In this document: piece after piece, positions 5,732 through 44,901 of the stretch
How positions within the stretch are numbered: position 1 is the stretch's first letter
How the letters are laid out: each line of letters opens with the position of its first letter
Source: Limisphaerales bacterium
Lineage (GTDB): Bacteria; Verrucomicrobiota; Verrucomicrobiia; Limisphaerales; UBA11358
Length of the DNA stretch: 49,933 nt
Assembly: GCA_003161635.1 (NCBI GenBank)
Contig: PMOA01000098.1
Coordinates: 18,618-68,550, forward strand
Reading direction: 5' to 3'
The notes under the pieces: generated by a model
The model's database searches: none
What the model was told of the DNA's origin: nothing
What the model saw: the letters and a program-made list of their open reading frames with translations, nothing else
Position numbers and translations under genes: made by a program

Positions 5732-6721
5732 TCAACGTTTCACGCCGGCGAATTCGGCGCGTTTCTGGATGAACTGCGCCATCAAGCTCACGGCGATTTC
5801 ATGCGTGCCGACGGCCTGGATTTCCACGCCGACCGGGCAGGCGATTTTGTCGAACTGCTCGGCCGTCGCGATGTTTTGTTTCAAAAACTGCTCGCGCATG
5901 ATGCGCGCCTTGCGGCGGCTGCCGATCATGCCGAGAAAAACGAACGGATGATGAATCCAATCGGACAACACCAGCGCGTCATGCTGATGGCCGCGCGTGA
6001 CGATGAGCCCGAATGCGGGCATTTTCGGCAACGGCACTTTCAAAAGCTCGTGCCAGGGGCCAACCTGAAGCCGCGCGGTGGGCGGAAAAAACTGATGGTT
6101 GGCCAGTTCCGGCCGATCGTCGAAAATTGTCACTGCAAAATCCAGTTGCAACGCCAGCGGCGCGACGGCCTGTGCCACATGGCCCGACCCAGCAATCCAC
6201 AACGCAAACGGTGGCGAAACCGTTTCCTGGTAAAACCATTCGCTGGTAGGGCGCGTCACTCCGTGCGCGCCGTCGTTCGTTTGCGCGGCTGCGGCGGGCA
6301 GAGGACTGCCCGCCCTACCTTCAACAAGTGCGATGGAAAAATCCTTTTTGACGCCCCAGCGGAGCGGCTCGGTGACGGCGGCCAGCTTGCGCCAGAGTTC
6401 CGCCGATTGCGGGGCGTGCGGCAGGATCAGCCCCGTCACACTCCCGCCGCAAATCAAGCCGTCGTCCCAGCCGAAATTGTGGTCGAGCACCATCTCGAAC
6501 GTGGCGGGCTGGCCGGACTTCAGGGCTTTTCTGGCGCGGGCGTGGACTTCGGCTTCGAGGCAGCCGCCGCCGAGCGTGCCGACGATTTTGCCGTCGGGGA
6601 AAAACAGCGCCTTGGCGCCGATGCGCTGCGGGCTGGAGCCTTTCGTGCCGGAAATCAGCGCGAGCACGAACGGCTGGTTTTCCGCCAGCGCGGCGGCAAG
6701 TTGTTCGTAGAAGCGCGTCAT
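5732..6721 (-). CDS. xdhC: XdhC/CoxI-family molybdenum hydroxylase maturation factor
   Basis: XdhC proteins bind Moco, promote its sulfuration and deliver it to the apo-hydroxylase. The N-terminal XdhC/CoxI domain includes ISGTKGSSPQRIGAKALFF and the GTLGGGCLEAEV motif. The C-terminal Rossmann half begins with WIAGSGHVAQAVAPL and contains VTRGHQHDALVL and FLGMIGSRRKA. I start it at 6721 (MTRFYEQ), where GGAGAG precedes the ATG, rather than at an upstream ATG at 6826. The two domains are separated by about 26 residues (~134-159) encoded exactly by a palindromic repeat (6245-6319). First gene of the operon running to 1181. Confidence 0.88.
   Translation of the reverse strand: MTRFYEQLAAALAENQPFVLALISGTKGSSPQRIGAKALFFPDGKIVGTLGGGCLEAEVHARARKALKSGQPATFEMVLDHNFGWDDGLICGGSVTGLILPHAPQSAELWRKLAAVTEPLRWGVKKDFSIALVEGRAGSPLPAAAAQTNDGAHGVTRPTSEWFYQETVSPPFALWIAGSGHVAQAVAPLALQLDFAVTIFDDRPELANHQFFPPTARLQVGPWHELLKVPLPKMPAFGLIVTRGHQHDALVLSDWIHHPFVFLGMIGSRRKARIMREQFLKQNIATAEQFDKIACPVGVEIQAVGTHEIAVSLMAQFIQKRAEFAGVKR
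6245..6319. repeat. Palindromic repeat inserted in frame in xdhC (copy 2)
   Basis: Outer inverted ends GGTAGGGC (6245-6252) and GCCCTACC (6312-6319) match those of the repeat at 957-1016. Inside are a GGCGCG...CGCGCC hairpin (about 6251-6272) and a perfect 9-bp hairpin GGCGGGCAG-CTGCCCGCC with loop AGGA (about 6293-6314). The span is 75 bp, a multiple of three, and it is read through without a stop on the minus strand, adding a low-complexity linker between the two XdhC domains. Confidence 0.75.
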
Positions 6722-8363: not shown

Positions 8364-8675
8364 TTCACCTGATTCTTCACCTAAAGTTACACCTGACGAG
8401 CAATAAAGGGGCGGTGACGGGGTAATAAGCGAGCATTGGGCGGGCGGTCGAAAAAACAGCTTGAACCCCTGTAAAATAAGGCTATACTAACCCTTGAAAC
8501 AGAGTGTGTTAGGCTCGGAACGGTAAAGAGACTGCGTTCGATTCCGACCCTCGCCTCCATGTTTTGGTGCGTGAGCAGCAAGGAGTTAGGCAAATCGGAA
8601 CGGCCACTGTCAGTGAAAGTGTCAGTAAAATGGTGAGTGCAATCACAATTCGCCATAACTAGCCAGAACTGCACT
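8364..8675 (+). other. tRNA-Cys-derived attachment site 1 with flanking 12-bp-period repeats
   Basis: The core CGATTCCGACCCTCGCCTC is at 8539-8557 (the match continues as CA). It corresponds to the T-loop to CCA end of a bacterial tRNA-Cys (acceptor strand CCTCGCC, discriminator T, CCA), but the rest of the tRNA is absent. Upstream, TTCACCT (8364), TTCACCT (8376) and TACACCT (8388) are spaced exactly 12 bp apart. Downstream, TGTCAGT occurs at 8608 and 8620, again 12 bp apart. A subterminal motif TAAGCGAGCATTGGGCG lies at 8426-8442. The segment 8553-8675 is nearly identical to 26851-26973. Confidence 0.75.
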
Positions 8676-26530: not shown

Positions 26531-26994
26531 TGTGCTAGTTTTTGTGCTAGTTCCGACTCTTTTTCGAGGGCTTAAACAGGCATTGAAGATTTTGCTATAA
26601 TCACTTGAATCACCAATAAAATCAGGAGTTTTATCGTGAGGCAAGAAATGCCAAGTAGTGCTGCTAAATCCAAAAATTTACAGTTTTGAGTTATAAATTC
26701 AGGAAAGACCCTCAAAAACCTTCAGTGAAATCTTCAGTAAGAGAGTTAAAACCGGTTAAGCCGAATAGTGAAAGAGTATATTGAAATTGTTCGGCGAACC
26801 ATGTAGTTTTTAGTCGAAAAACAGGCATTAGCCGTCCGATTCCGACCCTCGCCTCCATGTTTTGCTGCGTGAGCAGCAAGGAGTTAGGCCAATCGGAACG
26901 GCCACTGTCAGTGAAAGTGTCAGTAAAATGGTGAGTGCAATCACAATTCGCCAGAACTAGCCAGAACTGCACTGAAACTCGCCCACTACTCGCT
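26531..26994 (+). other. tRNA-Cys-derived attachment site 2 with flanking 12-bp-period repeats
   Basis: Core CGATTCCGACCCTCGCCTC at 26837-26855, continuing as CATG. The upstream pair is TTCAGT at 26721 and 26733; the downstream pair is TGTCAGT at 26906 and 26918. Both have a period of 12 bp. An additional, more distant pair, TGTGCTAG at 26531 and 26543, has the same period and may be the relic of an older site. The left-end motif CGCCCACTACTCGCT is at 26980-26994. The sequence between core and upstream pair (GAGTTAAAA...GGTTAAGCCGAAT...) is related to the equivalent part of site 3 but not to sites 1 and 4. Confidence 0.75.
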
Positions 26995-44665: not shown

Positions 44666-44901
44666 TTCACCTAAATCTTCACCTAACGAGCACTGACGGG
44701 GCAGTAACGGGGCGATAGGCGAGCATTGGGCGAGCGGTAGGAAAATTGGCTTGAACCCCTGTAAAACAAGGCTACAATAAGCCTTGAAACAGAGTGTGTT
44801 AGGCTCGGAACGGTAAAGCTTCCGCGTTCGATTCCGACCCTCGCCTCGTTGGGAAAATTCTTCTTATGCTCTTGCTCCACACCTCCAGCAAAAGCTCCAG
44901 C
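44666..44901 (+). other. tRNA-Cys-derived attachment site 4 with flanking 12-bp-period repeats
   Basis: Core CGATTCCGACCCTCGCCTC at 44829-44847, followed by GTT rather than CA. The upstream pair is TTCACCT at 44666 and 44678, the same word as at sites 1 and 3; the downstream pair is CTCCAGC at 44883 and 44895. Both have a 12-bp period. The inverted end motif (GGCGAGCATTGGGCGAGCG) lies near 44718-44736. The ~110 bp before the core closely match those before site 1 (for example CTTGAACCCCTGTAAAA and GAAACAGAGTGTGTTAGGCT). It closes the short element that starts at site 3. Confidence 0.78.

Follow-up and report, generated by a model that had tools for sequence, protein, structure and literature searches.

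The xdhC gene in the analysed window (the whole stretch of 49,933 nucleotides) carries a 75-bp REPIN that is open in the frame of the gene, and we are highly confident that this insert was moved by a cognate RAYT transposase, landed in a disordered loop between the two domains of the protein and is translated with it. The parts concerned are as follows.

5732-6721, minus strand: xdhC, XdhC/CoxI family, molybdenum hydroxylase maturation, 329 aa (ORF and Pfam)
6497-6688, minus strand: XdhC_CoxI domain, residues 12-75 (Pfam)
5774-6202, minus strand: XdhC_C Rossmann domain, residues 174-316 (Pfam)
6245-6319, minus strand: REPIN (head-to-head GTAG REP pair) within xdhC, residues 135-159 GRAGSPLPAAAAQTNDGAHGVTRPT, phase 0
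6293-6319, minus strand: REP 1, GGTAGGGCGGGCAGTCCTCTGCCCGCC, GTAG tail and hairpin, 0 mismatches against the family sequence
6245-6271, plus strand: REP 2, opposite orientation, GGTAGGGCGCGTCACTCCGTGCGCGCC, 0 mismatches against the family sequence
6272-6292, no strand: inter-REP spacer, sequence and length variable across the family
958-1015, no strand: intergenic REPIN, 8-bp ends identical, inner sequence different, majority subfamily of this genome

As the original prediction had it, a palindromic repeat occupies exactly 6245-6319, lies between the XdhC_CoxI and XdhC_C domains delimited by Pfam and has no stop on the minus (coding) strand. Its ends are GGTAGGGC and GCCCTACC; along the gene it reads GGTAGGGCGGGCAGTCCTCTGCCCGCC, spacer, GGCGCGCACGGAGTGACGCGCCCTACC, and comprises two opposed hairpins, the outer foot of each being GTAG, with G-GTAG-GGC at both ends. 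The element folds better than its shuffles on both strands (z -3.2 and -2.8). The junction residues are ...LVEGR / GVTRPTSEWFYQ... and, in an AlphaFold model of the protein (mean pLDDT 82.5), confidence falls below 50 exactly at residues 139-158, between two strands, a segment that the model thus predicts to be a disordered loop.

Comparison with orthologues at residues ~134-159 supports the expectation that this segment is an insertion. The 25 residues are absent from 11 of the 12 aligned XdhC homologues, including the nearest in the tree, that of G031 (97/95), which reads ...VEGGDDEWFYQ... where the window protein has ...VE-[25]-SEWFYQ.... The exception is the XdhC of G064 (L172, G064:C200), whose own, diverged copy has the same starting codon; the insertion may consequently be old. 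From these alignments it is possible that the insertion is shared by descent with G064, which would require a loss in G031, as the tree groups the latter with the window protein and leaves G064 outside; it is also possible, since the spacers fall into subfamilies, that the G064 gene acquired its copy independently. None of the relatives presents a clean empty site, and the linker inferred for the pre-insertion state would be shorter than that of any relative, implying that bases were lost at insertion or that the linker has diverged. A classical MITE of a DDE transposon carries a target-site duplication; none is visible at the XdhC junctions against the relatives, whose flanks have diverged.

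That this linker tolerates insertions, as had been proposed, is consistent both with its predicted disorder and with the XdhC of G021 (L029, G021:C196:22640), where the same linker holds, in frame, a member of an unrelated repeat family, GTAGCCGCCGACGTGAGTCGGCT.... With up to 2 mismatches and on both strands, this motif has 57 matches in the genome of the window, 31 in G021, one of which falls within XdhC, and 65 in G031 (control 0). The XdhC linkers of L028, L034 and L035 contain 7-8 nt tandem repeats, such as CTCAAAC and TTCAACGA.

The XdhC element combines a GTAG-tagged inverted REP pair, a variable spacer, hairpins and membership of a dispersed multicopy family, as is characteristic of REPINs. 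Across 83 family copies, the REPs are near-constant and the spacer varies. Matches to the XdhC-type element occur in 39 of 49 genomes of the genus, and, among GTDB contigs from other genomes, no fewer than 110 stretches contain its exact left REP, the carriers being nearly all Verrucomicrobia subdivision 3/Limisphaerales or Verrucomicrobia, plus a small number of Kiritimatiellae and MAGs with odd labels. Within the 4.3-Mb genome of the window, the pattern GGTAGGGC-N30-60-GCCCTACC recurs at 21 places (reversed control 0). The majority of these represent a different subfamily, GGTAGGGC-[GC]GCGCTGC..., and among the own-genome copies examined XdhC holds the sole intact REPs of its type, the relatives at G000:C43:~129 and C89:~10280 being damaged or divergent. 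The intergenic repeat of the window shares the 8-bp ends and two-hairpin plan of the XdhC element, as predicted; it is, however, a 58-bp element at 958-1015 rather than 957-1016, and because its inner sequence differs we assign it to another REP subfamily, closer to the majority one. The same genome has two other in-frame elements of this general type (51 bp), in a DPD-like oxidoreductase and in an MqnE/CofH-like radical-SAM protein. Separately, the window contains longer dispersed repeats that pair 8376-8557 with 44666-44847 (86%) and 8535-8675 with 26833-26973 (97%); the segments at 8376-8675, 26833-26973 and 44666-44847 are possibly another mobile element.

Scanning all loci with a home-made Y1 profile uncovered the likely mover of the family. 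RAYT genes lie tightly between XdhC-type REPINs in L282 (47 and 48 bp away) and in L184 (within a tandem array). All 7 genus RAYTs that are at least 62% identical to this protein have XdhC-type REPs or GGTAGGGC ends within ~80 bp, usually on both sides, versus 0 of 10 RAYTs at 47% identity or less with XdhC-type REPs nearby; the most distant of the 7 (L340) has bare GGTAGGGC ends within 80 bp and a full REP ~260 bp off. The protein displays MPDHLH (HUH), WQ and EYILMNP (with the catalytic Tyr), and matches the TnpA_REP structure 4ER8 (E 5e-5), in keeping with a Y1-fold RAYT/TnpA_REP. In both L282 and L184 the TAG stop of the gene falls in the GGTAG of a REP end, an arrangement described for GTAG REPs (PMC3733652). 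Binding and cleavage of REPs as single strands, with an important role for the GTAG foot, are established for TnpA_REP enzymes of E. coli, Stenotrophomonas and Marinomonas (PMC8266576); by analogy, the cognate RAYT would bind and cut XdhC-type REPs as single-stranded DNA. In L184 (G009:C59:49000-55500) the array consists of XdhC-type REPINs at ~85-bp spacing and is interrupted by the RAYT gene.

A search of the window's genome (94.6% complete) yielded no cognate RAYT, the best match there (41%) being partial and containing a stop; hence, the XdhC copy is probably no longer mobilised in this organism. The original prediction that the element is still, or was recently, mobile fares poorly on this account, as it does in view of the damaged XdhC-type copies elsewhere in the genome and the diverged copy at the same codon in G064. 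The genome's own RAYTs were considered as mobilisers and rejected: none of its 10 Y1_Tnp genes has paired GGTAGGGC REPs nearer than ~1 kb, and the partner came from relatives.

Intragenic copies of the family follow a frame rule. With the coding status of the flanks judged from codon usage, 22 copies in a first sample had coding DNA on both sides, of which 21 were stop-free in frame, one was in frame with a stop and none was shifted. The query behind that count included the spacer, a possible source of bias, and the count was redone spacer-blind on GTDB contigs: both flanks were coding for 13 of 79 copies, and all 13 were in frame, 11 in sense phase 0 and 2 antisense. When the in-frame copies are reduced to 29 distinct ones, 26 are read in sense phase 0 (GRAGSPLPA...) and 3 in antisense phase 1. 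Stops do not account for the preference, as 27 of the 29 are free of them in antisense phase 0 and all 29 in antisense phase 1. Under uniform use of open frames 7.6 copies would be expected in sense phase 0 (P about 8e-15), a value that treats copies as independent although recurring hosts (U32 peptidase, RsmB, EPSP-synthase family) may share descent. By Pfam, the hosts are real genes, with inserts within or between known domains (3 of 30 scanned ORFs had no Pfam match), and include UvrA, Mfd, LeuRS, CCA/poly(A) polymerase, an HrpA-like helicase, MnmE, RsmB, the EPSP-synthase family, TrpE, HsdM, kinases, a P-type ATPase, U32 and a second XdhC. The peptide of the favoured frame is the least hydrophobic, lowest in charge and least Cys-rich among the commonly open frames, which we read as selection for a harmless peptide.

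The same bias could instead arise at insertion, from a preference of the RAYT for one strand relative to transcription or replication. The strongly one-sided orientation would fit this, as would the use of single-stranded DNA by IS200/IS605-type enzymes, some of which target the lagging strand (PMC6006769). However, an orientation bias explains neither the phase bias nor the absence of frameshifted copies, and we consider it unlikely as the origin of the rule. The preference for one frame across all host genes could also be taken to mean that the XdhC peptide is useful, as a regulatory or interaction loop, beyond being merely tolerated; so could the copy at the same codon in G064, which would point to long retention if shared by descent. 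Against this, the insert is disordered in the AlphaFold model, G031 and other relatives do without it, and the occurrence of the same peptide in unrelated proteins speaks for its being tolerated, not for a particular function, making such exaptation distinctly improbable. Finally, ordinary length variation of a low-complexity linker, resembling a repeat through compositional chance in a GC-rich genome, would accord with linkers of differing length and the tandem repeats of some relatives, but is refuted by the family of copies, as exact 27-nt REPs at both ends are common to dozens of unrelated loci and the reversed-pattern control gave 0, leaving it scarcely credible.

Accordingly, we favour the RAYT-mobilised REPIN. 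The architecture, the copy families, the RAYT-REP pairing, the open frame, the empty sites in relatives and the disorder in the model are the observed elements of this account. The unit of two opposed GTAG-tagged REP hairpins and a short variable spacer would move as single-stranded DNA, carried by its cognate RAYT (TnpA_REP, an HUH/Y1 transposase) through a cut-and-paste step that we infer from published biochemistry. Having entered xdhC at the disordered inter-domain loop, it would be translated with the gene, giving a protein that is presumably made and working. This copy would have survived because sense phase 0 has no stop and yields a polar, low-hydrophobic, Cys-free peptide, and insertions in other frames or places would be eliminated by selection.

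A second form of translated element was found in the same phylum, wherein the transposase gene itself sits inside a host gene. The alaS of the window's genome contains a complete RAYT-like Y1 transposase in frame (G000:C33:17867-18499, minus strand; L304, L085) within an open frame of 1184 codons. The AlaRS profile is cleanly split around it (1-263 before, 262-533 after), and the genome yielded no second AlaRS match, leaving the RAYT-bearing alaS as the only copy. Genus homologues of this RAYT (E<=1e-20) occupy 12 places in 11 genomes, every one within an open frame of 698-1214 codons; the ones examined interrupt alaS (with two distinct sites), thrS or priA, and genomes occupied at one alaS site are empty at the other. 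RAYTs of a second type lie inside clpB (three genomes), priA and dinG. Across 388 genomes of the phylum, the best matches examined are inside alaS and recG; those of lower score fall in metH, ispG, valS, a DUF4080-like radical-SAM gene and an SNF2-type helicase, some weak matches being free-standing (in-frame RAYTs of other Verrucomicrobiota, including one in a radical-SAM B12 gene: L086, L088-L096, L128-L132, L313-L318, L325, L328, L329, L331-L333). Embedding of this kind is seen in over 20 independent genomes, which speaks against an assembly error.

Where tested, the embedded RAYT segments are under purifying selection (dN/dS 0.04-0.22 for pairs with usable dS; 0.04-0.07 for close pairs at alaS site 2, with dS near-saturated), and they retain the HUH motif and the Tyr. 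The embedded elements examined have two hairpins at each end, mostly with GGGGAGC...GCTCCCC tips, all of them translated. On the 3' side of the RAYT, the window genome's alaS (L085) has a second in-frame insert, ...FIEE-GSTRASRVADRALAVSSGAS...PEAGALPIPG-NVVTL..., whose hairpins are arranged like the two ends of the RAYT element joined together, with no transposase; judged by this arrangement, it is probably a non-autonomous derivative. A GGGAGC...GCTCCC search for further derivatives of the RAYT ends returned 4 places in this genome against 2 in the control, with C6:21984 and C25:29871 looking real by sequence. The quality of an AlphaFold model of the AlaRS-RAYT protein (mean pLDDT 53.8, pTM 0.28) does not permit a fold search; fair confidence is confined to the RAYT portion (about 500-640), which has low-confidence linkers on either side. 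We found no description of RAYTs within essential genes among open-licence papers.

We tentatively propose, as an idea that may well prove wrong, that one Verrucomicrobiota RAYT clade resides mainly inside host genes, with the whole element, hairpin ends and transposase, forming an in-frame internal segment of AlaRS (two sites), ThrRS, ValRS, PriA, ClpB, RecG, MetH, IspG and DinG. Such an intein-like refuge would secure expression and resist loss, and the short in-frame elements, such as that of XdhC, would share this translatable lifestyle, their ends having been selected as harmless when translated.

These elements have several precedents. In-frame GTAG REPs, among them head-to-head dimers that encode 20-30 aa, were reported in Opitutus terrae (Verrucomicrobia) and others, with both uvrA genes of O. 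terrae hit (Di Nocera et al., 2013; PMC3733652). The XdhC case, which had been thought notable here, is therefore an addition to an already known phenomenon; the likeness extends to palindromes in frame in conserved genes of the same phylum, including a uvrA (L156). The XdhC-type hosts, however, are Limisphaerales/Verrucomicrobia subdivision 3 MAGs, unlike the earlier set, and the literature consulted offers no description of the XdhC subfamily, its RAYT or the one-frame rule. As in Pseudomonas REPINs, two inverted REPs and a spacer form the unit and the same REPs flank the cognate RAYT (Bertels and Rainey, 2011; PMC3116915), but those were described as extragenic, whereas a sizeable share of XdhC-type copies are intragenic and translated. 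The comparison with Rickettsia palindromic elements (RPE) drawn in the original prediction is apt for the outcome, short palindromes in frame inside functional genes, but not for the class: RPE-4 and RPE-6 are of the CGTC class and have no associated transposase (PMC3733652), whereas the XdhC type lacks the CGTC signature and has a GTAG tag and a RAYT. In-frame REPs are also known from a protein loop of tnpA_REP genes of subclass 2.4 (Quentin et al., 2018; PMC6006769); there the transposase gene is the host, whereas here the hosts are unrelated genes and the nesting also occurs in reverse, with RAYTs inside host genes.

Taken together, these observations describe a REPIN family able to spread through coding DNA and, as its cognate transposase can be named, its mobility becomes directly testable. 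The single-frame rule (26 of 29) turns protein tolerance into a measurable selective pressure and suggests that the sequence of the element may itself be tuned for translation. Members of over-long size were dropped as fusions or annotation errors from the 2018 census of Y1 transposases (PMC6006769), and embedded RAYTs may for this reason have gone unnoticed. If confirmed at the protein level, they would represent a mobile-element niche comparable to that of inteins, apparently without protein splicing, and would provide a reason for the extra domains in some housekeeping enzymes of the phylum.
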